Position numbers and translations under genes: made by a program. Of a stretch of 37,598 bases of DNA, positions 15,431-35,715 are shown piece after piece. The notes beneath the pieces are model-generated. The model saw only the letters and a list, made by a program, of their open reading frames with translations, did no database searches and was not told the origin of the DNA. Every line of letters starts with the position of its first letter. Within the stretch, counting starts at the first letter, position 1. This DNA comes from Candidatus Tenebribacter burtonii (GTDB lineage Bacteria > Cloacimonadota > Cloacimonadia > Cloacimonadales > TCS61): positions 1 through 37,598 of the forward strand of contig JAVCCF010000116.1 of assembly GCA_030765625.1 (NCBI GenBank), given 5' to 3'.

Positions 15431-15442
15431 TTGGAGGAAAAA

Positions 15443-18400
15443 ATGAAAAAATTCTTAGGTTTAGTTATGTTTTTAATGTTCGTATGTAGTATTAGTGCAA
15501 CAGATTGGATAGCATTTGATTCCAGTTTTGAAAGAGAATTACAAGTTAATATAGTGGAATCTGATGATAACAGTATTCTTTTAGATATTAACGTTCCAGG
15601 AATGTATCTTCAAAATATTACAGAGAATGGACAGGTTTATCAGAGAATTAAAATGATCGAAGGTAGAACGACTCATGATGTAGGTTTTCCTGAACTACCT
15701 ATGATCACCAGAATAATTGGTATTCCTGATAATAAGGATGTTAGAGTGAAAGTGTTAAATGCTTCCACAATTAAATTGAACGATTATAATATTTATCCGC
15801 TGCAAACACCCGGGAAAGATGATGTCTCCAGTAATCAAGAATTTGTATTTGATCAGGAATTTTATCTATCTAAAGAAACTTATCCCCAAGATAACACTTA
15901 TATAGATAATGTAGGAATCTGGCGTGATGTTAAAATCGGGGGTTTCCATTTTATTCCATTTAATTTTGATGCAGGGACTAAAACTTTAGAAGTTACTACA
16001 AGTGCCAGAATTGAAATTGAATTTGATGGATTTGATGATCAACATGAATTGAATAAAGATAAAAAAATTACACCCGATTTTTATAATATGTATAATTCTG
16101 CCTTGATCAATTTTTCATCAATGGGATATGAGATCGAATACAATCGTGAGGTTAATATAAAATATTTAATTGTTACAAATACAACTACACTAACCAGTAT
16201 TCAACCATTTGTTGATTTAAAAAACCAGCAGGGAATGCCCGTAGAAGTTAGAATTCTTGAAACAGGATTTGAAACTGCGATACAGATCAAAGACTATATT
16301 ACTCAACTTTATAACTCGGATGATCTGGAGTATGTATTGATGGTGGGAGATGCTTATCCAAATGGATCAAGCGGACCGGATAATGTGCCGATGTATCTCT
16401 GGTCGGGTGGAGGCGAATCTTCATGGTCAGATTCATGGTATTCTTGTTTGGATGGGAACACAGACTATTATGCTGATATCGCTATTGGCAGGATCACTTA
16501 TGATAACATAGCTGAGCTTGATCACCAAATTCAGAAATTAATGGATTTTTATCAAACTCCAGATCAAACAACAAACTGGGGAGAGAACAGTATTTTGGTT
16601 GCTCACGAACAAGAATATCCCCTCAAATATACGCAGTGCAAGCAGCAGATCAATGATTTTCCATATGCTTTGCAAACACCAATTTTTACTCAATGTTATG
16701 GTGGTGCAGGAGCTACTAATAACGATATTATTAACTGGGTAAATACTACTTCCGGTGGTATATTCAATTATCGTGGTCACGGTAGTGCAACAGAACTATG
16801 GCAATGGGGTTCTACAGGAAGTTTTACCGCAACCCATGTAAATCAGCTCACAAATAATAACAGAAATTTTGTCATGTTCGATGTTTGCTGTGACAATATG
16901 GATATAGTGGGATATGCTGGTAACTGCCTAGCAGAATCTTTTATGAAGGCAGACGAAGCTGCTATCGCCATCAATGGAGCGATCGATCCTTCTTACACTA
17001 TTCCGAATCATGATTATGATAAGGAAATGTATAAAGCGATCTTCAATGAAGGAATTCTGAATATTGGGTATATCACAAATTATGCTAATGTGTTTGTAGT
17101 GAATCTGCATGGAAATATCGGAATTGCTAATGTTCTCACGTATCTTTGGTTAGGAGATAGTTCCATAAAACCTTGGACACTTCAGATAGAAGAGTTATCG
17201 GTTACTCACGATAATCAGTTGTTCCTGGGAATTTCCACTTTTGAAGTTTCTGTAATTGGGAATGGAAGCCCTTTAGAAAATGCCAGTGTATGTGTTAGTA
17301 ATGATGATGGTACAATTTATGCTTATGGTTTTACTGATAGTAATGGTTATGTGGAAGTTCAATTTGATGAACCTGTGCAAGATCCTGGTACTGCCTATGT
17401 AACTGTTACTTCTCATAATTTTATGACTTATCAGCAGGATATTCCAGTTATTCCTCTTGATGGTCCTTATATCATATTTGAAAGTTATGTTGTTGATGAT
17501 ACGATTACAGGTAATGGTAATGGAACTCTTGAAAATGGAGAGATCGTAGATCTTGATATGAGTATAGAGAATTTAGGTACTGAACAGGGAACGGATGTTA
17601 TAGTAACTATAACAACGACAGATTCTTATATAACAGTTGTTGATGGAACCGAGAATTTTGGTAATGTTGCAGCTGAATCTATTGTAACAGTTACAGGTGC
17701 ATTCACAATTGAAGCAGCTGGAGATATGCCTGATAGCCACATGATCTATTTTGAATTGGAAGCAGTAGCAGAAGATACATGGATCAGTGATTTTTCATTA
17801 GAAGCTTTTGCACCAATGTTCCCACCAGAAAATTTAACATCAGAGATCCAGAATTATAATGATGTAATGCTTACATGGGAGCAGCCAAGTGGTACAGATA
17901 TGACAAGAGATCTTTTAGGTTATAAGATCTACAAAGATGGTTTAGAGATAACTGAGATCAACGATCCTGCTATTCTCACCTACACAGATGCTATCTTACC
18001 AGCAGGTATTTATGAATATAGTATTACTGCTTTGTTCCATGTTGGAGAATCATGTTCTTCTAATATTGAAACAGTAACCCTGGTTCTTCCAGTACCTCAA
18101 AATCCAGAGGCTTCAACTCAATATGCAAACATTCTTATAAGCTGGGATGAGCTTGCAGACAGGTCATTTTCTCATTATAAAGTATATCGGAATTTACTCA
18201 TGATCGCAGATGATATAATGGAAAACTCTTATATTGATCTTGATGTACCGAACGGAACTTATTCCTACAATGTAAGATCGGTATATAGCGGTGGTTATCA
18301 ATCCGCCCTATCAACAGATGCTGTTATAGAACATATTCAGACCAATATTGATGAAATAATTATTCCTGTAAAAACCGAACTTACAGGTAACTATCCGAAT

Positions 18401-18646
18401 CCATTCAATCCGACAACAACAATAAGTTTCTCAACTAAAGAAGCAGGTTATGTATCAATAAATATTTATAATATGAAAGGTCAGCTTGTTAAGATACTTG
18501 TAAATAAGCAACTCGATGCAGCTTATTATGATATTGTATGGAATGGTAAGGATAACAGTGATAAACCAGTTTCAAGTGGTACATACTTCTACAAGATGAA
18601 ATCCAATAACTATACCGCTACAAAGAAAATGATACTTATGAAATAA
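15443..18646 (+). CDS. Secreted gingipain-like C25 cysteine peptidase with Fn3-like and C-terminal sorting modules
   Basis: A 1067-aa exported protein with a signal peptide 1 to about 19, a gingipain propeptide-like region, and a C25 peptidase domain (about 230-570). The likely catalytic dyad is visible: His446 in NYRGHGS and Cys482 or Cys483 in FDVCCDN. The substrate-binding fold also shows VLMVGDAYP and DYYADIAIGRI. After it come an Ig-like segment, two Fn3-like domains and a sorting domain with YPNPFNPTTTISFS ending KKMILMK. I chose ATG 15443 because it follows TTGGAGG; an in-frame TTG at 15431 would be part of that ribosome-binding site. The last ~290 residues are clearly homologous to those of the preceding M14 peptidase. 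A terminator follows. Confidence 0.9.
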   Translation: MKKFLGLVMFLMFVCSISATDWIAFDSSFERELQVNIVESDDNSILLDINVPGMYLQNITENGQVYQRIKMIEGRTTHDVGFPELPMITRIIGIPDNKDVRVKVLNASTIKLNDYNIYPLQTPGKDDVSSNQEFVFDQEFYLSKETYPQDNTYIDNVGIWRDVKIGGFHFIPFNFDAGTKTLEVTTSARIEIEFDGFDDQHELNKDKKITPDFYNMYNSALINFSSMGYEIEYNREVNIKYLIVTNTTTLTSIQPFVDLKNQQGMPVEVRILETGFETAIQIKDYITQLYNSDDLEYVLMVGDAYPNGSSGPDNVPMYLWSGGGESSWSDSWYSCLDGNTDYYADIAIGRITYDNIAELDHQIQKLMDFYQTPDQTTNWGENSILVAHEQEYPLKYTQCKQQINDFPYALQTPIFTQCYGGAGATNNDIINWVNTTSGGIFNYRGHGSATELWQWGSTGSFTATHVNQLTNNNRNFVMFDVCCDNMDIVGYAGNCLAESFMKADEAAIAINGAIDPSYTIPNHDYDKEMYKAIFNEGILNIGYITNYANVFVVNLHGNIGIANVLTYLWLGDSSIKPWTLQIEELSVTHDNQLFLGISTFEVSVIGNGSPLENASVCVSNDDGTIYAYGFTDSNGYVEVQFDEPVQDPGTAYVTVTSHNFMTYQQDIPVIPLDGPYIIFESYVVDDTITGNGNGTLENGEIVDLDMSIENLGTEQGTDVIVTITTTDSYITVVDGTENFGNVAAESIVTVTGAFTIEAAGDMPDSHMIYFELEAVAEDTWISDFSLEAFAPMFPPENLTSEIQNYNDVMLTWEQPSGTDMTRDLLGYKIYKDGLEITEINDPAILTYTDAILPAGIYEYSITALFHVGESCSSNIETVTLVLPVPQNPEASTQYANILISWDELADRSFSHYKVYRNLLMIADDIMENSYIDLDVPNGTYSYNVRSVYSGGYQSALSTDAVIEHIQTNIDEIIIPVKTELTGNYPNPFNPTTTISFSTKEAGYVSINIYNMKGQLVKILVNKQLDAAYYDIVWNGKDNSDKPVSSGTYFYKMKSNNYTATKKMILMK

Positions 18647-22802: not shown

Positions 22803-23087
22803 AAAGCCATCCATGTTCTTTAACTTATTATTCAATTATCTAATCATATTTTAAATAATTTTACATATTTTTAATAAATAAAACAATTTTTAGAATTTAA
22901 TTCTAATAGCAATATTTTATTAATAGTCACAATAATTTATTTGTTAACCTTATTAAATTTAAGTTAATTATGTTTGTTTGTAATAAATTATAATAATCCA
23001 TTTTTTTCTTGCAACAATAAGAAAAAATTTATTTATAGGAATAGAATATGCATAATAAGGAAGAAAATAATCTTAGGAGGACGTATA
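22803..23087 (+). promoter_or_regulatory. Extremely AT-rich leader and promoter region of the type IV pilus operon
   Basis: From about 22820 to 23060 the sequence is almost purely A and T, unlike its neighbours. It contains a perfect 7-1-7 dyad TAGAATTTAATTCTA at 22891-22905, a TTAAATTTAA palindrome near 22953 and a TATAAT at 22989-22994 with no clear -35. I do not see a sigma-54 GG-N10-GC site, which drives pilin genes in some bacteria. The AGGAGG of the pilin lies at 23075-23080. Long AT tracts here could bend DNA or bind a nucleoid protein. Confidence 0.45.
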
Positions 23088-23525
23088 ATGTTTAAAAATG
23101 TAAAAAACCAAAAGGGATTCAGTCTTATTGAATTATTAGTTGTTGTTGTAATTATTGCTATTCTTGCAGCCATTGCTGTCCCGATCTACATGAATTATGT
23201 TCGTAATGCAAGATCAACAGAAGCTCAAACTGCACTTGCTGCTATTCGAAGTACTTATCGAGTTTATCGCCAAACTTATGGATCTACTGATAATTATGAT
23301 ATTGATCAAGCACTTAGAGCTATCCACTTGGGAAATAGAACTTTGAAAAATTGGGAGTTTGAAGTTGTTGGTAATCCACCTACAAAATATGTTGCAACTT
23401 CCACAGAAGAGTTTCCCGAAGGTGAAGGAAATCAAGTTTGGTATGATGTGGATGATGCAAAATATTTTGGTTATGGAACTGCTGATGATGATGAAGCTAA
23501 TACTTCCGATGAAGTTTTAGATTAG
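23088..23525 (+). CDS. pilA: Type IV major pilin-like prepilin
   Basis: A 145-aa prepilin. A short basic leader ends at Gly10, followed by the class-III cleavage site FSLIE with Glu at position +5, then the hydrophobic pilin helix (LLVVVVIIAILAAIAVPIYM). The globular part is acidic and has no cysteine pair, so there is no disulfide D-region; the last 20 residues are rich in Asp and Glu. ATG 23088 was chosen because AGGAGG sits 7 bases upstream and it gives a normal short leader; an in-frame TTG 114 bases earlier would add an atypical N-terminus. As first gene of the operon it is probably the major subunit, although a pseudopilin-like role cannot be excluded. Confidence 0.92.
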   Translation: MFKNVKNQKGFSLIELLVVVVIIAILAAIAVPIYMNYVRNARSTEAQTALAAIRSTYRVYRQTYGSTDNYDIDQALRAIHLGNRTLKNWEFEVVGNPPTKYVATSTEEFPEGEGNQVWYDVDDAKYFGYGTADDDEANTSDEVLD

Positions 23526-23540
23526 TTCGGAGGTATTGAG

Positions 23541-24596
23541 TTGACTGTTAAAGAATTATTACAATTCACATCTGATGCAGGGGCTTCAGATCTTCATATT
23601 AGTTCTGGTTCAGTGCCAATGGTACGCGTTATAGGGAAAATGAAAAAATTAAATTTACCAATATATAATGAAGAGGAAGTAAAAGAGTTAATATATAGCA
23701 CAATGAACGATTCTCAAATCACCATTTTAAAGAAAAAATTAGAAATTGACTTTTCTACTAAACTTGATGATGATACACGTTTCCGTGTGAATGCTTTCCA
23801 TCAATTAAATGGTTTGGGAGTTGCTTTTCGTGTGATTCCCAATGAAATAAAAGATTTTCAAGATCTACATTTACCGGAAATTCTCAGTCGTTTATCTATG
23901 AAAGATAGAGGTTTGATTCTTGTAACCGGCCCCACAGGAAGTGGTAAATCTACAACTTTGGCTACAATGGTAGATTATGTTAATGATCATAGACATTGCC
24001 ACATAATTACAATTGAAGATCCGATAGAATTTGTACATTCCAGTAAAAATTCACTTATTAATCAACGAGAAGTTGGTCACGATACTTGGGGTTTTGACGT
24101 AGCTCTTCGTAGTGCTTTGCGTGAAGACCCGGATGTTATTCTGGTAGGTGAGATGCGAGACCTTGAAACTGTTTCTTTGGCTCTTACTGCTGCAGAAACC
24201 GGACATCTTGTTTTTGCTACACTTCACACAAGTAGTGCTACAAAATCGATCGATAGAATTATCGATATGTTTCCAAAAGAGCAACAGGCTCAAGTACGTT
24301 CTATGCTGGCAGAATCATTGCAAGCAGTTATAGCGCAAACACTGTTGCCAATGAAAGATGAAAGTGATAGAATTCCAGCATTAGAAATAATGATAGCAAA
24401 TTCTGCTGTAAAAAATCTAATTCGTGAAGAAAAAACTTATCAGATACCATCTGTAATTCAATCTGGAAATAAAGAAGGTATGCAATCGAAAGATCAATCA
24501 TTATACAATCATGTGATGAATGGTTATCTTGATAGAAAAGTAGCAAAAGAATTTGCTGATAATCCAAAAATGTTTGCGACTGGTACAGGTTATTAA
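23541..24596 (+). CDS. pilT: PilT retraction ATPase
   Basis: A 351-aa hexameric cytoplasmic ATPase that disassembles pili for twitching. Opening ELLQFTSDAGASDLHISSGS is typical PilT. Walker A GPTGSGKST lies at 130-138, the Asp box TIEDPIEFVH follows, Walker B is LREDPDVILVGEMRD and the His box TAAETGHLVFATLHTSSA. The start is TTG at 23541, supported by GGAGGT 7 bases upstream and by the family N-terminus. It lacks the CxxC pairs seen in PilB-type ATPases. The position between the pilin and the minor prepilins is unusual, since pilT often lies elsewhere; here it may share the pilin's transcription. Confidence 0.95.
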   Translation: MTVKELLQFTSDAGASDLHISSGSVPMVRVIGKMKKLNLPIYNEEEVKELIYSTMNDSQITILKKKLEIDFSTKLDDDTRFRVNAFHQLNGLGVAFRVIPNEIKDFQDLHLPEILSRLSMKDRGLILVTGPTGSGKSTTLATMVDYVNDHRHCHIITIEDPIEFVHSSKNSLINQREVGHDTWGFDVALRSALREDPDVILVGEMRDLETVSLALTAAETGHLVFATLHTSSATKSIDRIIDMFPKEQQAQVRSMLAESLQAVIAQTLLPMKDESDRIPALEIMIANSAVKNLIREEKTYQIPSVIQSGNKEGMQSKDQSLYNHVMNGYLDRKVAKEFADNPKMFATGTGY

Positions 24597-24598
24597 AA

Positions 24599-25093
24599 AT
24601 GTTTTTTTTAAAATCTTTGAAGTCAGAAAGTGGTATGGGCATTATTCAAGTTTTAGCTGCTCTGTTAATAGTAACGGCATCTATTGCGGGGCTTTTTACA
24701 AGTACATATTATGTTCGATACAAAGCAGACGCTCATTATCATTATCGAGTAGCTTTGCTAAAAGCAACCCAGAAACTTGAAGAAATCAAATGGTATAATA
24801 TGTACAACCAGCATTCTGTAGCCATCGAAGGTAATGAAACAATTAATACGGGTGAGTTTATAATTGATGATTTGAGTGGTGAACCGGTAATAGGTTTTAT
24901 GACAAAAAGTAAGCAATCCTTCCGCGATCTTGCTGTAGCAAATTATATAGCTTACGATATGGTTACAATAAAAGTAACCTGGCGGAATGGCCCAGAAAGA
25001 TATTTTTATAGAATCATCAATGTCCCACAGGAACTTGAATTAAGAGAAGACTATTTCTACAGAACTGATCAAGTTGTAGGAGCGTCAGAATGA
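24599..25093 (+). CDS. Minor prepilin (PilV/GspI-like) with glutamine at +5
   Basis: A 164-aa protein with a prepilin-like N-terminus: SESG (Gly12), then MGIIQVLAALLIVTASIAGLF. The cleavage site is recognisable, but position +5 is Gln17 instead of the conserved glutamate. Early residues of the mature region (ALLKATQKLEEIKWY) are typical of PilV/GspI-type minor pilins, which help start pilus assembly at the tip. The start at 24599 is 2 bases after pilT and has only a weak ribosome-binding site, so it may rely on translational coupling. It overlaps the next gene by 4 bases. Confidence 0.75.
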   Translation: MFFLKSLKSESGMGIIQVLAALLIVTASIAGLFTSTYYVRYKADAHYHYRVALLKATQKLEEIKWYNMYNQHSVAIEGNETINTGEFIIDDLSGEPVIGFMTKSKQSFRDLAVANYIAYDMVTIKVTWRNGPERYFYRIINVPQELELREDYFYRTDQVVGASE

Positions 25094-25755
25094 AAAATAT
25101 TTTAAAATCAAATAAAGGTATATCGTTAGTAGAGATTATTGTTACTCTACCTCTGGCCGCACTGATTTTTGTAGGAGTATCTTTATCTTTGATGCATTTT
25201 ATTAGTACATACCAGGAGACAAAACTTTATACTCAGTTACAAGAAGATCTTTTCACTGCTGTAGAAACTATGAGGCAGGGATATGCAATCGATGAGTTTA
25301 CAAAAAATCAAGCTTTGATAGGTCTTTGTGCTGCAAATTCTGTGGAGTTAAACATCGCTAATAATGAGATAACGGTAAGCCCAGCATTAGCTGAAGATGA
25401 TACGAATATTTCAAATTATTGGAGTAAATTCTCCTGCGATGACGAAGGTCAATTATGGGTATTATCCAGCCATGGGTTAAGTAAAACATTCAAACGACCA
25501 ATTAAAATATTTCCTTCCACACCAACTAATTTGATTGGAAATCAACCACAATTTAGAATTTTGAATAAAAATTCTATTTGGGAAGTTCAAAAAAGAGATG
25601 GAAATGGAAGACCTGTTTTGATGAGAATAACTTTAGAAGCTCAAGTTCGATTCAGAGCAAAACAGATAAGACAAACTCAAGAAGATGATTTACGGCAAAA
25701 TACTAAAACAATTAAATATGAAACATCTGTTTTCATTGGAAATTCTCAGACTTAA
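25090..25755 (+). CDS. Minor prepilin (PilW/GspJ-like)
   Basis: A 221-aa prepilin with leader MKNILKSNKG, cleavage after Gly10 and mature start ISLVE with Glu at +5, followed by a hydrophobic helix (IIVTLPLAALIFVGVSLSLM). Length and gene order match PilW/GspJ-type minor subunits, which stack under the pilus tip. It is coupled to the previous gene by ATGA overlap. The specific PilW or GspJ identity is by position and length only. Confidence 0.8.
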   Translation: MKNILKSNKGISLVEIIVTLPLAALIFVGVSLSLMHFISTYQETKLYTQLQEDLFTAVETMRQGYAIDEFTKNQALIGLCAANSVELNIANNEITVSPALAEDDTNISNYWSKFSCDDEGQLWVLSSHGLSKTFKRPIKIFPSTPTNLIGNQPQFRILNKNSIWEVQKRDGNGRPVLMRITLEAQVRFRAKQIRQTQEDDLRQNTKTIKYETSVFIGNSQT

Positions 25756-25768
25756 AGAGGATATCGAT

Positions 25769-28123
25769 ATGTTTATAAATATAATGAAAAATGAAAAAGG
25801 CGGCATTTTTGTTATCGCCGCAGCAGTTGTAGTAACTATTGTTACCTTTGTATCTTCTGCCACTTTAATGAATATGGTAAATACAGATCAACTCAACACT
25901 CAATATCAACATGATAAAATTCAAGAAGAATTATTACTTAGAACAGAATTGACCAGAACATCGCTGGCTATTGAGCAAAATAGGTATATCCCTTTACCTG
26001 ATAGAGTTGTGAAAATATTTACACCTACACGCAGAACAACTTATACTATAGATAATCACAAAGTCCGTGCAAGAACCGGATATTCCGTTCAGTCTTTGAT
26101 AAAAGCAGAAAGAGAAGGAAAATCGGGCAGAAAAGTTTTATCTCCTATCAAGAGAATGACAGAAAGATATTTAAACCCCAAAAGTTTAGCTGAATATCAA
26201 TACATTACTCAAACAGAAGCATCAGAAAATGAAGATGGTGGTTTTGCTGCATCATTAGTTAAATTCTATAATCAAGACGAATTATATGGACCACTACACT
26301 CAAACAGTGATATTTATCTACAGAATAATAGCTGGCCAGTTTTTTATTCGTTGGTTACAACTACTGGTCATTTCAAAGTTGTTACTAGTCAAGGAGCTTA
26401 TGTAGGTCTTGCAACACAAGTTGCTCCCATGAACGACATATTTTTAGGAGGATGGGAAGAAGAAGTACCTGAAGTTATTTTTGAACCTAATGCTGAAGAA
26501 ATTAGACAAAATGGTATTGAATTAGGAAATGATGATACAGATATTGTTTATGTCAATCTTGGGACCGGTAGTTTTGAATTGAAATATGGTGAGATTAATG
26601 ATATCGAAACAGTTGAATTAGATGTTTTTAGCTGGTTCCCAAGCGATATTAAGCAGGTAGAAGAAGTTATAGCTATTGGTGGGAACTGGTATGAAGATGC
26701 AGATTACATCTTTACAAATGTTATAACAAAAAAAGAAACGCTTTGGACAAATATTAACTCTTTTCCTATAAACAACAATTCATTTTGGATACCAAATGGA
26801 GAACTTTGGATCAAAGGTGAAGTCTCAGGTTCTACAACTTTTGGTTGTGCAGACACAGTTTTCATTGTTGGTGACATTACATATGCAGGAACTTCCCCTG
26901 GTTCATGGCCTGATGGCTTTAGTGGTATTGACCCTGGAACCGGAGAACCGCTATATACCGGTCCTGTAAATCATAATGACTATTTCGGGCTGGTTTCAGA
27001 GCAAAAAATATTGATTAGATACAAACATAGAGAACCGATTAATGGAAGTAATATAATTATTGATGATAACTGTAATAGCATATATTTATATGGAGCTTAT
27101 GCTGCTATTGCAGAAGGTGATATAGTGCTGCATGGAGATATGGCTTGTCACTATGATGGTATCTTCACGTTTCAATATCAACATCCTCATGGTTCCACCC
27201 CAAACTTCATAGCTCCGAGTCCCTATATTACTCGAGAATTTACGATAGAGCTTTATGATAGTGGTGGAAACGGTTGGGATGATGCGACTATAGATGTAAT
27301 TGTAAATGGAAATCTTATCTTGGATGATATATATTGTACAGGTAGTCAGAGCACTTTTGAATTTGATGTTGATAATGGTGATTTGATAGAAACTCAATAT
27401 ACAAATGGTGGAAGTGATGATGAAAATTCTTACACAATTTTTGATCATGAAGGAAATGTAATATTTTCAGATGGACCTCCACCCATTCCAGGTTATGTAT
27501 CTCCAATGATATTGCTTGAGCCAACAAATATGGAGTCGCTTTATACTTTTGTAGATTTACAAAAATATATTTTTCCGATAAATAATTATATACCAAATGC
27601 AGGATTTAATCTACATGGAGCAAATCCGATAAATGGAAATCCTTGTGGTTACCCCATAGAGTCGTGGATTAATAATACTCTTATTGACCCGAACGGATAT
27701 ATATTATCATATCCCAATTCCGGTGGTAATTATGTATATCCCTATGGAACAGATTATCCATGGTACAACCCTGTTTGGCCAGAACCGTCAACAGATCAGG
27801 TTAACCAATATGAACGGGGAGCAATACATTTGTATGGGGCTGTAGCACAAAGAAGACGTGGTTTTGTGCATCGTTCAGGAGGTGATCCTTATAACCATCC
27901 ATATGGTAATTCAAATCCAAGTCCATGGGAAATGGAAGATTATCATTATGACGGGAATCATCCTTCAACTGGATATGATAAAGACTATTATTATGATAGG
28001 CGTTTTTTAGAAGTAACACCCCCGGATTTTCCACAGATTCATGAAAATTGGGGTCAATATAACTTAGCTGGTTTCGTCCAAAAATCATGGTTTTTCAAAT
28101 CACCTGGTGATTGGGGATTTTAA
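25769..28123 (+). CDS. Large pilus-associated protein with N-terminal membrane helix (PilX-like) and inserted surface domain
   Basis: A 784-aa protein with an N-terminal helix (residues 12-34, GIFVIAAAVVVTIVTFVSSATLM) after a KNEKGG leader, resembling the PilX/GspK slot of pilus operons, but lacking Glu+5. ELYGPLHSNSDIYLQNN (about 172-188) and the C-terminal block GAIHLYGAVAQRRRGFVHRSG ... GYDKDYYYDRRFL (about 683-750) look like a conserved family found beside pilus genes. Between them, at about 488-568, sits a separate domain with IELYDSGGNGWDDATIDVIVNG and ENSYTIFDHEGNVIF, of the 'DSxGDGWNG' type found in many secreted proteins. I chose ATG 25769, preceded by AAGAGG; the upstream in-frame start overlaps the previous gene. 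It probably replaces PilX/PilY1 as tip subunit or adhesin, but this is inference. Confidence 0.65.
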   Translation: MFINIMKNEKGGIFVIAAAVVVTIVTFVSSATLMNMVNTDQLNTQYQHDKIQEELLLRTELTRTSLAIEQNRYIPLPDRVVKIFTPTRRTTYTIDNHKVRARTGYSVQSLIKAEREGKSGRKVLSPIKRMTERYLNPKSLAEYQYITQTEASENEDGGFAASLVKFYNQDELYGPLHSNSDIYLQNNSWPVFYSLVTTTGHFKVVTSQGAYVGLATQVAPMNDIFLGGWEEEVPEVIFEPNAEEIRQNGIELGNDDTDIVYVNLGTGSFELKYGEINDIETVELDVFSWFPSDIKQVEEVIAIGGNWYEDADYIFTNVITKKETLWTNINSFPINNNSFWIPNGELWIKGEVSGSTTFGCADTVFIVGDITYAGTSPGSWPDGFSGIDPGTGEPLYTGPVNHNDYFGLVSEQKILIRYKHREPINGSNIIIDDNCNSIYLYGAYAAIAEGDIVLHGDMACHYDGIFTFQYQHPHGSTPNFIAPSPYITREFTIELYDSGGNGWDDATIDVIVNGNLILDDIYCTGSQSTFEFDVDNGDLIETQYTNGGSDDENSYTIFDHEGNVIFSDGPPPIPGYVSPMILLEPTNMESLYTFVDLQKYIFPINNYIPNAGFNLHGANPINGNPCGYPIESWINNTLIDPNGYILSYPNSGGNYVYPYGTDYPWYNPVWPEPSTDQVNQYERGAIHLYGAVAQRRRGFVHRSGGDPYNHPYGNSNPSPWEMEDYHYDGNHPSTGYDKDYYYDRRFLEVTPPDFPQIHENWGQYNLAGFVQKSWFFKSPGDWGF

Positions 28124-28155
28124 GAAGAAATAGAAATAATAAATGGTGAGGTAAT

Positions 28156-29226
28156 ATGGCTAAAAAGAAAAAAGTGAAATTTAAAGAATCGGTAGGTTTG
28201 GATATCGGTGAACACAGCATAAAGATGGTTCATCTTAAGAAGCTGCATCAAGGGTTTGCTCTTCTTAATTGTGAATCCCGTTCTACCATTGCTGAAGGTG
28301 TTGAACCGGTACGTTCCGATCTTTCACCAGATCGTTTTGCACCTGTACTATCGAGCATGTTAAAAACAATGAAAATCAAACCGAGACAGATCAAACGTCT
28401 CGTCTCGTCAATTGGTGGAGAGAACACGAGCATTAAGCAAATAAAGACTATATTTCTTCCGGATGATGAGCTTGAATCGGCTCTATTTTTTGAGGCAAAA
28501 AAACATCTACCGATAAGCGGTTCAGAAATGATGTTGGACTATCAAGTTCGCAGGGTGGAAGAGAAATCAAATAATATGCACATTCTGTTAGCTTCTGCAA
28601 CTAGAGAACTTGTGAATAATCATACAAATATTCTCACATCAGCTGGTATTATCCCTGGAATAATAGACTTAGAAGCTTTAGGTATAGCCAATAGCTTTGC
28701 ACTTAATAATCCTGTTGATGATGGAGTATATGTGCTTTTGGATATTGGCGCTTTTCAAACTAACATGGTAGTTTTTGGTCCTGATTCGAAATTCTTTGCT
28801 CGTAATATTGATTGGGGTGGCTTCAATTTTACAAAAGATATAATGAAAGCAAAGAATATAGATTATCCCGAAGCTGAAGAATATAAATTTGAGAATGGAT
28901 TGAAAAAAAATGATAATGTATCAAATAAAGATTCTCTTATTGCACTGGATATTACAGAGAAAACAACAGCAGAGCTTATGGTTCAAGAAATCAAGAGATC
29001 TTTACGTTTTTATGTGAAAGAAGCTGGAACTAGTGATTTCAGAAAAGTCCTTCTGTCTGGCGGGGGTGCAAAACTTATTGGATTGGTAGAATACCTGAAT
29101 GAAAATTTAAATATTCCTACAGAAGTATTTAATCCGTTTACGAGTATAGAAAAACCTGCAAAATATTCAGATGAAACAGATCCGGAATTTGCTTTAGCTA
29201 TCGGCTTGGCATTAAGACCGGAATAG
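28156..29226 (+). CDS. pilM: PilM, actin-like ATPase of the pilus assembly platform
   Basis: A 356-aa cytoplasmic actin-fold protein. The phosphate-1 loop (VGLDIGEHSIKMVHL, residues 13-27), phosphate-2 loop (YVLLDIGAFQTNMVVF) and adenosine motif (VLLSGGGAKLIGLVEYL) are all visible. PilM binds the N-terminal tail of PilN and links the motors to the periplasmic PilNOP frame. It has the same neighbours as in most type IV pilus clusters (M-N-O-P-Q). The start is supported by GAGGTAAT upstream and a basic KKKKVKFK start; it ends with TAG. Confidence 0.93.
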   Translation: MAKKKKVKFKESVGLDIGEHSIKMVHLKKLHQGFALLNCESRSTIAEGVEPVRSDLSPDRFAPVLSSMLKTMKIKPRQIKRLVSSIGGENTSIKQIKTIFLPDDELESALFFEAKKHLPISGSEMMLDYQVRRVEEKSNNMHILLASATRELVNNHTNILTSAGIIPGIIDLEALGIANSFALNNPVDDGVYVLLDIGAFQTNMVVFGPDSKFFARNIDWGGFNFTKDIMKAKNIDYPEAEEYKFENGLKKNDNVSNKDSLIALDITEKTTAELMVQEIKRSLRFYVKEAGTSDFRKVLLSGGGAKLIGLVEYLNENLNIPTEVFNPFTSIEKPAKYSDETDPEFALAIGLALRPE

Positions 29227-29237
29227 AGGGGCAAAAT

Positions 29238-29822
29238 ATGAATGAATTATTTTTTAAGATAAACTTAAATAAGTATGGTGATTTAAAGCAGAAGGCGGAA
29301 TCTGAAAAAAGGGTATTCCAGTATACTCTTATTGGTTACATTCTTGTAATTGTGATCATGACAGGTTTTGTGATTGGTTTTAATATAGATTTGCAAACTA
29401 AGATCGATAGTAGAAGCAAATTATTAAATGAGATCAGAAATGAGATCGAAACTTATGAAATCTCTGGCGAATTTCTTACAAAACTGGATTTAGAAAGAAT
29501 GGCAATAATAAGTAGAGAGAGGATATTCTGGGCTAAGAAATTAGTTGCTTTATCTGAAAAAACTACTGATAAAATTGCCATCACAAACTTTTCTTTCAAG
29601 GGTAATAACTTGAGCTTGTATGGTATAACAAAAGTTGATAAAAATCAGAAAGAATTCGATTTGATAGATAATTTTATTACTGAACTGAAGAATAATGTTC
29701 ATATTAATACAGATTTTCCTGAGATTACGTTTGTTCTTTCTCGTCTTGATTATGAAAAAGATATAGAAATATTGCGTTTTCAGATTGATCTGATTTCAGA
29801 ATCTTCTGAAAAGGGAAGGTAA
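29238..29822 (+). CDS. pilN: PilN-like inner-membrane assembly protein
   Basis: A 194-aa bitopic protein: the N-terminal cytoplasmic segment has the conserved FFKINLNKY (the INLLP-like motif that binds PilM), a transmembrane helix at about 29-50, a coiled coil (about 52-80) and a small ferredoxin-like periplasmic domain. It heterodimerises with PilO. GGGGCAAA and the PilM stop lie just before the start; 3 bases separate it from pilO. Confidence 0.88.
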   Translation: MNELFFKINLNKYGDLKQKAESEKRVFQYTLIGYILVIVIMTGFVIGFNIDLQTKIDSRSKLLNEIRNEIETYEISGEFLTKLDLERMAIISRERIFWAKKLVALSEKTTDKIAITNFSFKGNNLSLYGITKVDKNQKEFDLIDNFITELKNNVHINTDFPEITFVLSRLDYEKDIEILRFQIDLISESSEKGR

Positions 29823-29825
29823 AAC

Positions 29826-30380
29826 ATGAGAAATAAATACTTAGCTTTGCTTTTTGTTATGATATTATCTGCAATTATCTTCTTTTATATGAGTTCTAAT
29901 ACAATAAAAGCCAAGATAGAAATAGTTGGTAGATATGATGAAGAAATAAAAAGTAAACAGGAAATACTGAATAGTGCAAAAGTGCTAAATGAACAACTTA
30001 AAGAAGTTTCTAAAGTAATTACAAATAGTATGACAACAAAACGATATTACAATGCTAGTGAAGTTAATGCTTTCGTAAAAAAAATAGCAGATCTTGCTGA
30101 TAAATATAAGATTTCTGTAAACTCAATGTCTCCAAAAGTAGTTGCATCTTCCGATAAAAATCTGGTTCAACAACAATACAGTTTTTTATTGGAATGTACT
30201 TATGTTCAATTTGGACAATTTTTGACTGATCTTGAGAGTTTTGATCAAATAATAGAAATTACCGAATTAGATGTGAAGCCAATTAAAACTGATGATATTA
30301 AAATTGAAATTGAGAACCCGGAAACACGCTACAAAGTAACAATTCAGTTATCTACATTTAAAATTATCAAGGAGGTATAA
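29826..30380 (+). CDS. pilO: PilO-like inner-membrane assembly protein
   Basis: A 184-aa bitopic protein with an N-terminal transmembrane helix (about 5-22), a coiled coil (about 30-65) and a PilO-type ferredoxin-like domain (VNAFVKKIADLADKYKI ... FGQFLTDLESFDQIIEITEL). It partners with PilN and PilP to align the platform with the secretin. The next gene begins directly after its stop, behind an AAGGAGG inside the 3' end. Confidence 0.85.
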   Translation: MRNKYLALLFVMILSAIIFFYMSSNTIKAKIEIVGRYDEEIKSKQEILNSAKVLNEQLKEVSKVITNSMTTKRYYNASEVNAFVKKIADLADKYKISVNSMSPKVVASSDKNLVQQQYSFLLECTYVQFGQFLTDLESFDQIIEITELDVKPIKTDDIKIEIENPETRYKVTIQLSTFKIIKEV

Positions 30381-30929
30381 ATGGAAGAAAAATATCTGAA
30401 AGATTTTGTCATCTCACTTGTTGTTATACTCCTGCTAGCTTTTGGAATGAAGAATGTTTCTTTATATAGAAAAGTGGAAACAATTCCTAAAGAATCGAAA
30501 TATGCTGGTTTGGTAATGGGTGAAAAACTACTATCTCAAATAAAAGAAATTGAAAGCTCCATTCAAGATAGAAAAGATTTTATTTTTACGGTAGAAAAAG
30601 ATCCACTTGAACAAAATCTAATTGTTAAAACCATGAGAGATTTGCAAACTCAATGGCGCAGGAAGATAGAAAACATGGTTCGTCTTGAATCAACCATTAT
30701 TCCTGAAAATGGAGAGAAACGAGCTGCTATTGCCTATAAAGGTTCTACAACTATTTACAAGATAGGTGATGACTTTATTAAAGGTAATATCACTGATATT
30801 GAACAAGGAACAGTAACTTATAATTATAAGGGAACAGTTGGAACAATCAATGTGAAAAAACTTCCTGAAAAACCGGTAGAAATTCAGGAAAATAATAAAA
30901 CAAAAAAAAATAGACAATATAATTGGTAA
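30381..30929 (+). CDS. pilP: PilP-like protein, membrane-anchored rather than lipidated
   Basis: A 182-aa protein with a transmembrane helix at about 10-25 and no lipobox. Residues about 72-77 (EKDPLE) resemble the RDPF motif of PilP, and the C-terminal beta domain (YKIGDDFIKGNITDIEQGTVTYNYKG, GTINVKKL) matches the PilP/GspC homology region that binds the secretin. In well-studied systems PilP is a lipoprotein, so this anchor resembles GspC more. Identity rests on these motifs and on its place between pilO and pilQ. Confidence 0.72.
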   Translation: MEEKYLKDFVISLVVILLLAFGMKNVSLYRKVETIPKESKYAGLVMGEKLLSQIKEIESSIQDRKDFIFTVEKDPLEQNLIVKTMRDLQTQWRRKIENMVRLESTIIPENGEKRAAIAYKGSTTIYKIGDDFIKGNITDIEQGTVTYNYKGTVGTINVKKLPEKPVEIQENNKTKKNRQYNW

Positions 30930-30943
30930 TTAAAGGAGAATTT

Positions 30944-32356
30944 ATGAAAAGTTTTAAGTTAAAGAATAGTTCTGGAATCACGATGCTATTTTTAATCGCA
31001 TTTTTGATAGGAACTTTCAATCTATCGGCTGATGATGGAAATTTATTGCAAAAAAAAATCACATTGGATGCTGAAGATGCTTCTATCTCAAATATTATTT
31101 CAACAATGGCTAGACTTAGTAATTGTAATATTGTATTAGCGATGGATACATCAACTAAGGACAAGGGAGAAAAAGAAGAAAGAAAAATTACGATCCACAT
31201 TCAGGATGTTCCAATTGAACAAGCTTTGGCTTTGGTTGTAAAATCAATTGGACTATCTTATCGTCTGATCGGAGAGAAAACTTTTATCGTTGGGGATAAG
31301 GCAAGAATCGAAGAAGAGATTGGTGAAAGAACTTATGTGATCAATCTGAATTATGTTGATGTTGATAAGATAACTAATGCATTAGAAATTATGCCGGGAG
31401 AAGCTGTCGCTATTGAAGGACAGAATTCCATACTAATTCGTGCAAATCCAGAAACTTTTGCCGAGATCACAAATAGAATAGCAGAGATTGATATTCCTCA
31501 AAAACAAATTGAAATTCGTGCCAGACTAATCGAGATTTCAATTTCAGAAGCTGAAAAATTTGGAATCGATTGGTCAAAGCTGAACAATCTTACAACAATT
31601 CTTGCTGAGGATCCACTAGCAGAAAATGGTGCAGGATTACCTTTTAATTATCAAGACTCTTCAGGAGAATTACCCCATGGTGAGTTATCTCCTTTCGGTG
31701 AACTTCCCGAAGATCAATATTTCCAAAGAATGGATCAATTATCTGATATTGGACATTTCAGCCGTCAACTCACTGCATTTGATATCACAATAGATTGGCT
31801 TCTGGCAAATAATGCAGCTCAACTTCTTACAGATACGCGGATTACAGCATTAAATGGCGAAGAAGCTGAAATTCTCATTGGTGAAGTTATTCCTTTTGTT
31901 GTGGTAGATAACGATAAACAAGTTCAAGTGGAAAGAGAAGAAGTTGGTATTAAATTAAAGATCAAACCTACCGTTAACAAAGATGGCCAGATTACTACTA
32001 TGATTGAACCGGAAGTAAGTTCTGTGATGGAACTTGTGGGTGGTTATGTTCCACGAACCAAAGTAAGAAAAATAATCTCGACCGTAACAGTTCCAGATGG
32101 AAGGAAAATTATAGTAGGTGGGCTACTTAGTAGTAATGTTATACACACAACTAATAAAGTTCCACTTTTATCTTCAATACCATTTCTTGGAAAATTATTC
32201 CAACATAGCGTAAAGGAATTGAAGAAAACAGATCTTATTATTGAAATCACACCAAGAGTTGTTAGTTACTCCGAGGATGTGGAATACAATATAGACGAAA
32301 ACCTTGAAAAACATTTGATCATAGAAAAAGATTCAAATGAAAATGAAAACCAATAG
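30944..32356 (+). CDS. pilQ: PilQ-type outer-membrane secretin
   Basis: A 470-aa secretin through which the pilus leaves the cell. Signal peptide to about residue 30, an STN/N0 domain (ITLDAEDASISNIISTMARLSN), a second N-domain (RTYVINLNYVDVDKITNAL ... NRIAEIDIPQKQIEI) and the secretin core with the conserved VPLLSSIPFLGKLF (about 405-419) and DLIIEITPRVV. It lacks AMIN domains and extra N1 repeats, so it is shorter than typical PilQ. ATG 30944 follows AAAGGAG; an in-frame TTG at 30923 would overlap pilP. A hydrophilic tail (ENLEKHLIIEKDSNENENQ) ends the protein. Confidence 0.93.
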   Translation: MKSFKLKNSSGITMLFLIAFLIGTFNLSADDGNLLQKKITLDAEDASISNIISTMARLSNCNIVLAMDTSTKDKGEKEERKITIHIQDVPIEQALALVVKSIGLSYRLIGEKTFIVGDKARIEEEIGERTYVINLNYVDVDKITNALEIMPGEAVAIEGQNSILIRANPETFAEITNRIAEIDIPQKQIEIRARLIEISISEAEKFGIDWSKLNNLTTILAEDPLAENGAGLPFNYQDSSGELPHGELSPFGELPEDQYFQRMDQLSDIGHFSRQLTAFDITIDWLLANNAAQLLTDTRITALNGEEAEILIGEVIPFVVVDNDKQVQVEREEVGIKLKIKPTVNKDGQITTMIEPEVSSVMELVGGYVPRTKVRKIISTVTVPDGRKIIVGGLLSSNVIHTTNKVPLLSSIPFLGKLFQHSVKELKKTDLIIEITPRVVSYSEDVEYNIDENLEKHLIIEKDSNENENQ

Positions 32357-32364
32357 GGGGGAAA

Positions 32365-33996
32365 ATGAAATTCAATAAGTTTTTATTACTTATAGTTGTT
32401 TTGCTTGTTTTTGCAGGTATTTTTTTTACAGCTTGTGATAACCGAATTTTAGATCCTGAAGATGTTGAAGGCGGAAATGAAAATTACATTTTAACAATGT
32501 GGGCAGAACCAGACACTATTTATGCTGATAATGAAAATGGAACATATGCTACTATCTATGTTCTTGTAAAGGATCAAAATGATTTTGTTATCTTCGATCA
32601 AAGAGTTAATTTTGGTGCGAATATGGGGAATATTATTGCTTATGATATTACAGATAGTACAGGTGTTGCTTCAGTGGAATTCTGGGATGATGGAATTCCA
32701 GGAGTTGCAACAATATCTGCATATACAGAGCATATCTATCTTGATGGAGATGGTGAAGAAGCTACCAGCACTTCATCAGAGCAAATGAGTGTACATGTTG
32801 TTCCTCAAGGTGGTGGAAACCCTACTGATGTGAATTCGATCGGTTTTGATTCTCAGGGACAGGTGGATATTCAAGTTGCAGGTACAGGCGGAAATGAATC
32901 CTATAACTTTATTGTGAGTCTTTATGACGTTAATGGCAATCTTGTTCAAGAACCTAAAGACGTTTATTTCCAGTTTGTTAATGCTCCCGTTGGAACAAAT
33001 ATTAATAATACAATATTTTGGCCAAGTACAGATTCATTATCTGTAGTATCTTCTGGCGGAAAAGCAAGTATTCCGATTAGTAGTGGAGACTATTCAGGTA
33101 CAGTTAGTTTGAGAGCTTTCACTTACAATGATACAATCCTAATCTCAACGGTAAAATCTGAAATTGTTGTACATTCAGGACCTCCAAATTCTGTTGCGAT
33201 TTCAATTGGTGGACAAGATACAGGTGAAGAGATGGGTAGCGGAATCTGGAATATTGAATGTGCTGCTTTTCTAACAGATCAATATAATAATCCTGTTGAT
33301 TACGGGACAGCCGTTTATTTTTCTTTAAGTGACACGGTCTCTTTTGCTTCTATTTATGCTCCTGGTTATGTAGGTAACGAAAATGCTGATGGCGATTCTA
33401 CAAGTGGAATTGCATATACATATTTGAATTATGATGGAGCCCATATTAATGATTCTATCATGGTAAATGTTGAAGTTTCCAATAGCGTTCCTGGGCAGCA
33501 GAATTTTACTGATAGTCAAATTGTGGTTTTACCAATGCAATTTGCTAACATAGAAATGATTGCAATTCCACAGCATGTTGATTGGGATATTTATGATAAT
33601 CCACCGGATTGGAAAAGTGATGAGTTTAATCTTTCTCCAAAATTTAGAGTAATCGTTCGAGATGGTCAACAAAATCTCATTAGAAATCAGGAAGTTACTT
33701 TTACTTCTACATTAGGCGTGCCGGTACGCGAAGATCAATTGGATATGGATCCAACTAATTCAAATTTTGAACCGGATTTTACCGACTTTACTGGACCTGG
33801 TAATGATGGTGAACCACTATCTGAGGCAGATGTAAATAATGGCGAGATTGTTCAATTATTTAGATTTTACAAATATGAATGTCCTCCACCTATTCCATCA
33901 CCTCCTGGATCGATTCAGGCTCAGATCACGGCTACCATTGTGGGAACACAGACTTCTGCTACAGCACAGGTAGTTTTGAATAGATATGTAGATTAA
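32365..33996 (+). CDS. Lipoprotein with Ig-like (Big_1-type) repeats in the pilus operon
   Basis: A 543-aa lipoprotein: the signal ends FTAC (Cys24). The rest is beta-rich, with at least three Ig-like segments of bacterial Big_1 style, e.g. TIYADNENGTYATIYVLVKDQNDFVIFDQRV, IVSLYDVNGNLVQEPKDVYFQF and FLTDQYNNPVDYGTAVYFSLSD, then FRVIVRDGQQNLIRNQEVTFTS. These resemble invasin/intimin stalk modules. It sits between secretin and pilB with only 8 and 9 bp spacing, so it belongs to the operon. A pilotin-like or surface-stalk role is possible; I do not know a named homologue. GGGGGGAAA precedes the ATG. Confidence 0.75.
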   Translation: MKFNKFLLLIVVLLVFAGIFFTACDNRILDPEDVEGGNENYILTMWAEPDTIYADNENGTYATIYVLVKDQNDFVIFDQRVNFGANMGNIIAYDITDSTGVASVEFWDDGIPGVATISAYTEHIYLDGDGEEATSTSSEQMSVHVVPQGGGNPTDVNSIGFDSQGQVDIQVAGTGGNESYNFIVSLYDVNGNLVQEPKDVYFQFVNAPVGTNINNTIFWPSTDSLSVVSSGGKASIPISSGDYSGTVSLRAFTYNDTILISTVKSEIVVHSGPPNSVAISIGGQDTGEEMGSGIWNIECAAFLTDQYNNPVDYGTAVYFSLSDTVSFASIYAPGYVGNENADGDSTSGIAYTYLNYDGAHINDSIMVNVEVSNSVPGQQNFTDSQIVVLPMQFANIEMIAIPQHVDWDIYDNPPDWKSDEFNLSPKFRVIVRDGQQNLIRNQEVTFTSTLGVPVREDQLDMDPTNSNFEPDFTDFTGPGNDGEPLSEADVNNGEIVQLFRFYKYECPPPIPSPPGSIQAQITATIVGTQTSATAQVVLNRYVD

Positions 33997-34005
33997 GGAG
34001 TATAA

Positions 34006-35715
34006 ATGACATTTACACCGCAATATGCTAAGTTAGGTGAAATATTAGTACATCAAGAAATAGTTTCTGAAATACATATTAAAGAAGCTTTACAAAAGCA
34101 AAAAAACTTTCATCTAAAGATAGGACAAACACTGCAGAAGCTTGGATACATAACTGAAAAACAACTTCTTGGTGCATTACATCTTCAACTCGAATATGAA
34201 GTTGTAGCTTCTAATGAACTTATGGAGTTAGATCCCGAAATCATTAAGCAAATCCCTGAACCATTCGCTCTGGAAAATCAAATAATGGCAATTCGGGAAG
34301 ATGGTGGTTCAATTGTTGTTGCTATGGTTGATCCTGAAAATATTGTTATTCAAGATAGTTTAAAGAAAATATTAGGGAAAAATATAATTCCTGTCTTGAT
34401 TGGCGAAACTACTTTAGCTGATACTTTAGAACGATATTATAAGACGATCAGAACTTCTTCACAGGTAGATGATGCTGTTGGTGAATTTGATTTTGTTGCT
34501 GTGGATGAAGATGAAAATGAAATCTCCATAGATTCCAAAGGTGAGACGGATGCACCGGTTGTAAAACTGATAAATCTAATTATTACCGAAGCTATTAAAT
34601 CTAACACAACAGATATTCATATCGAACCACTCACGAAGAAGACCAGAGTTAGATTTCGTATCGATGGGGCATTACGTGAAGTAATGTCTCCACCGATCGG
34701 TTTGCATGCTGGTATGGTTTCTCTGGTTAAGGTTATGGCGAAGCTAAATATTGCAGAGCGAAGGTTGCCTCAAGATGGTCATATTTCTCTTAAAACACCG
34801 ATGAAAAGTGTGGATGTACGTGTTTCTATTGTGCCAACAGTTACCGGTGAGAAAGTGGTTATGCGTCTTTTGGATAAAGGAGAATTCGGATTTGATCTCA
34901 CTACATTAGGTTTTACAGATAGTAATTTTGAGATGTTCCATAAATGGATTCGAAGACCTTATGGAATTAACATTGTATCCGGTCCTACAGGTAGTGGTAA
35001 ATCGACAACTTTACACGCTGCTTTAAAAGAGATTAGAAATATTGAAAATAACATCGTTACTGTGGAAGACCCTGTAGAATATAGATTAGATGGAATTACA
35101 CAGATTGAAACTAAAGAAAAAATAGATCTTACTTTTGGACGATCATTACGGTCTGTGTTGCGCCAAGACCCGGATATCGTTCTTATTGGTGAGATTCGAG
35201 ATGAGGAAACTGCTGATATTGCTATCAAATTCTCTTTGACCGGTCACCTAGTTTTCAGCACATTGCATGCAAATGATGCTCCTTCCACCATAACCCGACT
35301 ATTGGATATTGGAATTCCAAGTTATCTGGTAGCTTCATCATTGAATCTGATTATGGCTCAGAGATTGGTGCGAAAAGTTTGTAATAATTGCAAAATTGAT
35401 TACACACCAACTTCTAAAGAACTAGCAAGCGCAGGTATCTCGGAAGAAGAAGGTAAGCACATTAATTTTAAGAAAGGTGAAGGTTGTGTTCATTGTGATA
35501 ATACGGGATATTCAGGAAGAACTGGTATCTTTGAAATGTTAGAGATAACACCGGAAATCCGTAAGTTGATATTTACTGGTGAAAATCAAGATGTGATTCG
35601 CGATGCTGCAATAAGAAATAATATGATGACACTTCATGAAAGTGGAATAGAAAAAGTGAAAATGGGAATTACTTCAATTCAAGAGGTAATCAAATTTACA
35701 ATATCAGAACAATGA
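34006..35715 (+). CDS. pilB: PilB/GspE extension ATPase
   Basis: A 569-aa cytoplasmic motor that drives pilus extension. N-terminal GspE-N domains (about 1-150, ILVHQEIVSEIHIKEALQKQ), then the RecA-like core with Walker A GPTGSGKST (326-334), Asp box VEDPVEYRLDG, Walker B LRQDPDIVLIGEIRDEET and His box SLTGHLVFSTLHAND. The zinc-type cysteines are Cys459, Cys462, Cys494 and Cys497 and occur in PilB but not PilT. AAGGAG precedes the ATG. The gene is followed by pilC after 18 bp, the usual B-C order. Confidence 0.96.
   Translation: MTFTPQYAKLGEILVHQEIVSEIHIKEALQKQKNFHLKIGQTLQKLGYITEKQLLGALHLQLEYEVVASNELMELDPEIIKQIPEPFALENQIMAIREDGGSIVVAMVDPENIVIQDSLKKILGKNIIPVLIGETTLADTLERYYKTIRTSSQVDDAVGEFDFVAVDEDENEISIDSKGETDAPVVKLINLIITEAIKSNTTDIHIEPLTKKTRVRFRIDGALREVMSPPIGLHAGMVSLVKVMAKLNIAERRLPQDGHISLKTPMKSVDVRVSIVPTVTGEKVVMRLLDKGEFGFDLTTLGFTDSNFEMFHKWIRRPYGINIVSGPTGSGKSTTLHAALKEIRNIENNIVTVEDPVEYRLDGITQIETKEKIDLTFGRSLRSVLRQDPDIVLIGEIRDEETADIAIKFSLTGHLVFSTLHANDAPSTITRLLDIGIPSYLVASSLNLIMAQRLVRKVCNNCKIDYTPTSKELASAGISEEEGKHINFKKGEGCVHCDNTGYSGRTGIFEMLEITPEIRKLIFTGENQDVIRDAAIRNNMMTLHESGIEKVKMGITSIQEVIKFTISEQ

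Follow-up and report, generated by a model that had tools for sequence, protein, structure and literature searches.

K subunits cap the tip complex of minor pilins, as set out in the accessible part of PMC9934059. In ComZ of Thermus thermophilus (6qvi), a large solenoid lies between the penultimate and last pilin strands and there is no Glu5 (accessible part of PMC6561018). In Streptococcus sanguinis, the minor pilins PilB and PilC carry a non-pilus domain, probably at the tip (accessible parts of PMC8179133 and PMC9934059), and that of PilC includes a glycan-binding module (PMC9934059, same part). Here we describe P0001, a protein of 784 aa encoded at 25769-28123 (+) in a contig of Candidatus Tenebribacter burtonii, phylum Cloacimonadota (JAVCCF010000116.1, 37,598 nucleotides, hereafter the window). 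We read it as a K-type minor pilin, a GspK/ComZ-like pilin with a solenoid, in which a loop of the solenoid carries an optional ligand-binding sandwich, and give this reading a probability of about 0.6. P0001 shares with ComZ the missing Glu5 and, as predicted, the large solenoid in this place. Like other modular pilins, it combines a pilin with a domain not specific to pili. It differs from them in that its module sits in a solenoid which is an insertion in its own right, and in that close relatives may have or lack the module; the insert makes P0001 a variant of the modular pilin with a nested design.

The insert spans residues ~488-588 (27230-27532, +; conserved sandwich 488-579) and contains a DSGGNGW motif. 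We compared 50 pilin-type proteins, the window protein and 49 from named records. The segment is present in 14 of them, always at one site, and absent in 36, so we dropped the idea that it is an integral part of the fold. It is the only insertion longer than 30 residues in this set; one other protein has 22 residues at the site. The inserted domain proposed by an earlier note, made from the sequence alone, is therefore real. Its start at ~488 holds, and the end moves from ~568 to ~588. The refutation set in that note, a segment integral to the fold and shared by every family member, fails on these absences and on the confident fold that the insert is predicted to take by itself. Among the 30 best loci, 12 have the segment (L001-L012) and 18 lack it, with the flanks aligning; without it, HPHGSTP...SPY joins nearly directly to ...YTYIDLHKF. 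Insert-profile scores are between 130 and 155 bits.

The distribution is patchy. Within the genus, own genome counted, nine genomes have a pilin match and all nine carry the insert, with one further genome giving no match. It is also found in one genome each of the genera g3, g10 and g16, and is missing from other species of g3 (G027) and g10 (G018). In the closest pair that differs in the insert, the sisters L041 (with) and L045 (without), both flanks are 84% identical (423 and 70 residues). The variation expected by the earlier note is thus seen among relatives, with the limit that these comparisons are between species and genera, and that the nearest relative of P0001 (L031, 95% identical) also bears the insert.

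Predicted alone, the insert folds as an eight-stranded beta-sandwich (pLDDT 93.8, pTM 0.84), and inside the P0001 model its 10-residue blocks over 491-580 score 82 to 94. The nearest structures are the carbohydrate-binding module CBM60 2xfd (Z 8.3, rmsd 2.9, 86 aligned), MmpS5 (Z 7.9) and CBM60 2xhh (Z 7.5), followed at Z 5-6 by C2/PLAT-like domains, LecB-type lectins and others. The likeness to CBM60 is one of predicted sandwich arrangement, at about 10% identity, and MmpS5 scores as high. This is a common sandwich and no proof of function. In terms of Pfam, 5 of the 14 inserts have weak matches to PPC (PF04151; best E 0.0054), the window insert not being one of them. The residues invariant in the 14 copies are, in domain numbering, D10, G15, W16, D22, C36, D51, Y57, T58, E65, Y68, G82, P83 and P85. 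The insert is acidic by sequence, and its acidic residues may bind calcium.

Outside pilins, a search confined to Cloacimonadota genomes found the insert domain at 30 places in 17 of 60 genomes. In the window genome it occurs in the pilin copy only. From 20 of these regions we obtained 21 ORFs (open reading frames), 163 to 3090 residues long, with several of them truncated at a contig end. Judged by eye, 8 of the 21 have a tail of the type IX secretion system (T9SS) kind, and many have signal-peptide-like starts. One of them (L138) consists of little beyond a signal peptide, the insert domain and a tail. Of six carriers scanned, four match LTD, three CarboxypepD_reg, four Por_Secre_tail (one below cut-off) and five FlgD_ig; the sixth, L129, matches BACON_2 only. 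The earlier description of a separate middle domain of a secreted-protein kind is borne out by these relatives.

On the core tree of 32 pilins, which leaves out the second copy of L036, L070 and L040, the insert trait needs six changes (bootstrap 5-7; four forced by starred branches). A single clade of insert-bearing pilins (13 in this tree) was rejected (p-AU 0.00015). In the tree of the insert itself, a branch (83/82, not starred) sets the 14 pilin inserts apart; their closest neighbours are three secreted-type copies of genome G011 (93/97). These groupings favour one original graft followed by loss or exchange over many separate grafts.

P0001 begins with MFINIMKNEKG|GIFVIAAAVVV, in which a putative prepilin-like leader ends in Gly11 and a hydrophobic helix follows. 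The AF2 model (mean pLDDT 80.8, pTM 0.70) gives an N-terminal helix at residues 11-70 (25799-25978, +), where the sequence has no Glu at position 5, and four beta-strands, presumably the pilin sheet, at 79-137 (26003-26179, +). A long strand-rich body lies between strand four and the last strand. Its first part, at 145-487 (26201-27229, +), begins about where the part shared with T9SS-type proteins begins (see below). Its second part, at 589-745 (27533-28003, +), holds the GAVAQRRRGFVHRSG...GYDKDYYYD block and its invariant columns (30 rows; 50 rows). The presumed last pilin strand, at 769-777 (28073-28099, +), is outside the shared part. The body is presumed to be a beta-solenoid because ComZ 6qvi is the top structural match of the whole model (Z 14.4, residues 43-780, 326 aligned) and the order of elements fits ComZ. 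No match to ComZ was found by sequence, and the accessible part of PMC6561018 names no further inserted domain in ComZ, unlike P0001.

In the XcpGHIJK pseudopilus model 9a1f, residues 9-134 find their match in chain R (116 residues; its subunit is not stated), with Z 7.8. A streptococcal minor pilin matches at Z 6.7, and no GspK chain was identified by name among the matches. P0001 resembles GspK-type pseudopilins in operon position, N-terminal helix and this pilin part; unlike P0001, GspK has a helical domain, set elsewhere in the sheet (accessible part of PMC6561018). The earlier note was right that P0001 is large and that its two termini belong to one protein family. The size is due to a body common to the whole family and not to the insert, since the 36 pilin-type rows without it measure 593-696 aa. 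A large pilin, resembling ComZ, is itself ordinary for this phylum.

The ORF is open throughout, with AGAGG about 8 bases upstream of the ATG, and stands in a pilus operon. The order is a PilA-like major pilin candidate (22974-23525, +; PF07963, E 3e-10), the retraction ATPase PilT (23541-24596, +; TIGR01420, E 3e-142), a PilV-like (I-type) minor pilin (24599-25093, +), a PilW-like (J-type) minor pilin (25090-25755, +), P0001, PilM (28156-29226, +; PF11104, E 7e-45), a weak PilN, PilO, an unassigned gene, a PilQ-type secretin (30923-32356, +; PF00263, E 3e-37) and, 3' of the secretin gene, a Big_1 Ig-like protein (32365-33996). P0001 is thus encoded 3' of the I- and J-type genes, names that come from position, synteny and weak matches (TIGR02523, E 0.041, from NCBIfam for PilV; N_methyl, E 0.17, and PRK10557, E 0.0021, for PilW), and 5' of PilM-PilN-PilO-x-PilQ. 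This is the PilX/GspK position already recognised in the earlier note, and together with the homologues described below it underlies the naming of P0001 as a GspK/PilX/ComZ-like protein.

Synteny was followed at 66 named loci, 51 pilin-type and 15 of the T9-type described below, by searching them with 14 window proteins in tblastn; L097 was excluded. The other pilus genes appear in the same order at 48 of the 51 pilin-type loci, as far as contigs extend. PilV or PilW went undetected at several distant ones. None of the 15 T9-type loci has pilus genes in this search.

In this setting, the pilin part would anchor P0001 as the first-assembled subunit of the tip, and the solenoid would form a cap there, by analogy with K subunits. 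The insert would project outward as an optional ligand-binding module, exposed outside the cell, with a glycan as the most likely ligand, possibly held via calcium. As PilT is present, a bound ligand could be pulled in or serve for traction, and binding with retraction may result in attachment or capture. The module is optional, as most relatives have the pilin without it.

Several results weigh against reading P0001 as a K-type pilin with a ligand-binding sandwich. The rmsd to ComZ is 10.2 over the aligned residues, which means that domain placement differs or is loosely modelled, and AF2 confidence is low at 601-670, 711-730 and 761-770. Foldseek returned nothing at E<=0.001 for either the whole model or the insert. 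The best Z of the insert is near the 7-8 reached by models without clear relatives and MmpS5 is tied with it, so carbohydrate binding is suggested by fold only. A PDB sequence search with the insert found no relative. P0001 has no Pfam family, and NCBIfam gave one chance-level row (E 0.14). Finally, three loci from one metagenome-assembled genome (MAG; L075, L094 and L096) have no other pilus genes nearby in the tblastn search.

P0001 could also serve chiefly in natural competence as a DNA receptor, the role of ComZ in Thermus, with the insert as a minor or structural addition. ComZ, the closest structure to the whole model, binds DNA (accessible part of PMC6561018). The window genome encodes a ComEC-type protein, which counts for little because such proteins were matched in 10 of 14 control genomes too. 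Given that a PDB sequence search with the family profile returned no ComZ chain, and that the insert is acidic with relatives in secreted-type proteins, we think this rather unlikely. In another reading the insert is a neutral decoration without a function of its own, tolerated in an exposed loop after a single gain and subject to repeated loss. Its repeated absence comes with no other visible change, in 74 of 91 pairs it is conserved less well than the core, and between the window and L031 its dN/dS is 0.47 vs 0.09 for the core. Yet D10, G15, W16, D22, D51, E65 and Y68 do not vary in the 14 copies, the insert stays in frame, and dN/dS is below 1, though from few changes; neutrality seems to us unlikely.

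A third alternative is that the insert serves assembly, docking a partner (for example another minor pilin, or a secreted adhesin at the tip) and not a ligand. K-type pilins work in HIJK tip complexes (accessible part of PMC9934059), and the Big_1 protein of the same operon would be at hand. However, the same operon genes are found at loci with and without the insert, so no partner gene was seen to track its presence, and we consider docking unlikely. On balance, the observation in the earlier note is confirmed and its interpretation is supported in part, with adhesion at the pilus tip still a proposal.

The most surprising part is how the solenoids of pilus and T9SS-type proteins are intertwined in their history. 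Without the pilin parts, the solenoid is found in 40 proteins from 27 genomes (930-1260 aa where complete), predicted to be type IX-secreted and here called T9-type. Their matches start at profile position 137-180 in 38 of 40 and at 70 in two; where no contig end intervenes, they run to 635-660. The insert is missing from all 40. All six T9-type proteins scanned with Pfam match a T9SS-type tail model, L057 only below cut-off. The N-flanks fall mostly in one group (37 of 39; phmmer E<1e-3, single linkage) and 38 tail-less C-flanks in six, so the host protein is one family on its N-side and more mixed on its C-side. These copies are at L055-L057, L060-L063, L065, L067, L068, L070, L082, L085, L090 and L093 and in the T9-type rows of L163-L201.

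In a solenoid-only tree of 92 rows, which includes the second copy of L036, the T9-type rows are ungrouped; 19 changes are needed, 18 of them forced by starred branches. When 16 genomes were taken, each T9-type solenoid was sister to the pilin solenoid of its own genome, with 15 of the 16 pairs starred, and T9-type monophyly, meaning one origin and vertical descent, was rejected (log-likelihood difference 1157, p-AU 6e-40). Because these genomes were picked by hand from the 27 as distant, and g3 and g7 are each represented by two, 16/16 overstates the pattern and the count over all 27 is the fair figure. There, with one random genome per genus, the two copies of one genome are sisters in 10-13 of 18 genera (mean 12.1). 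They are never sisters in g11, g12, g14, g24 and g32, because T9-type copies of neighbouring genera group together, and often not in g5. In the full tree, when one widens from a T9-type row to the first clade that contains a pilin, the own-genome pilin is included in 38 of 40 cases. In 19 of the 40, identity to the own pilin exceeds identity to the T9-type copy of any other genome. These counts place the re-matching on the scale of genera or genus groups, and not within species.

With single origin and vertical descent rejected, the solenoid points to repeated domain-limited recombination or rebuilding. The pattern may come either from domain-limited gene conversion or from rebuilding of the secreted protein with the solenoid of the local pilin, in whichever direction. 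In most genomes, own pilin and T9-type gene share only short exact DNA matches (the longest are 59, 54, 50 and 47 bases), and genes of other genomes often match over a longer stretch; recent conversion is therefore at most partial. In G004, a near relative of the window genome, the T9-type solenoid groups with Tenebribacter T9-type copies and the pilin with those of G033 and G027 (92-row tree), as if one of the two had been exchanged. A permutation test carries no weight as proof here, since relatedness confounds it. A local test at the insert site gave -0.02 for 8 insert-bearing rows and +0.05 for 31 others (p 0.03; baseline +0.06 from unrelated pairs), a weak result that ignores relatedness.

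It is conceivable, although we consider it unlikely, that the pilus-tip pilin and a type IX-secreted protein of one cell share a solenoid that is re-synchronised within lineages, time and again, by domain-limited recombination. They would form a matched set, perhaps for self-recognition between the pilus tip and the surface of a neighbouring cell, or to reach one ligand from two platforms, and the sandwich would be a pilus-only effector, lost cleanly through conversion by an insert-less copy. The window genome showed no secreted solenoid copy (one match only, in a MAG 98% complete), and G004 has one. This absence lowers the odds of a matched set, as does the 27-genome count; in the window species the partner would have been lost, unassembled or present in other cells. 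If the solenoid is indeed kept matched in the two kinds of protein, two surface systems usually studied separately would be linked, and a directly testable question of recognition would arise. As for the pilin itself, P0001 adds a nested design from an uncultured phylum to the modular pilins, and the natural pairs with and without the insert make its role testable.

In total, 54 of the 60 genomes searched have a P0001 homologue, own genome counted. The records found are titled Cloacimonadota, Cloacimonetes, Cloacimonadales or members of these (Ca. Tenebribacter, Ca. Cloacimonas), save two. L042 and L047 bear the titles Armatimonadota/Armatimonadetes, yet by genome code they are in the family of the window and they cluster with Cloacimonadota; the titles look wrong. 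Several lineages have two or three adjacent pilin copies (L036, L047, L075, L076, L094, L170, L188, L192, L193 and L195). The second copy of L036 is cut by a contig end 5' of the insert site, and L070 is also cut by a contig end. Two PDB sequence searches, one of them with the family profile, gave one chance-level row each, and the Pfam N_methyl model has no match in P0001. DUF4900 (PF16241) does not match P0001 and matches 8 of 50 relatives weakly (best 6e-5); with 0 of 21 genomes above cut-off, membership was dropped. A virus-borne family was dropped as well (37 pattern matches among viral contigs, no confirmed relative), and so was an anti-phage protein (none by PADLOC). Our literature searches found no publication on this pilin family in Cloacimonadota, nor any for the GDGWNG motif or DUF4900, and the accessible main text of PMC8542988 contains neither “pili” nor “type IV”.

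In most pilin-type loci that extend far enough, the Big_1/invasin-type protein has a match at the corresponding position. Further 3' we take the genes to be PilB (34006-35715), PilC (35734-36987) and a prepilin peptidase (36997-end), names given from the sequence and without a library search. Over 24599-32356 (PilV, PilW, the pilin, PilM, PilN, PilO, the unassigned gene and PilQ), comparison with L032 and L037 shows the window closer to TCS62 (g3) than to Tenebribacter davisii of its own genus. PilA and the Ig-like protein are less similar to TCS62. This may reflect either operon exchange or an uneasy genus border.

Lastly, upstream of the pilus operon are a C25 (gingipain-type) peptidase and an M14 carboxypeptidase with T9SS-type tails (15431-18646 and 11759-15430), that of the carboxypeptidase just under the Por_Secre_tail cut-off. 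The window genome as a whole has 149 matches to the T9SS tail model, and one of its proteins matches SprA above cut-off.
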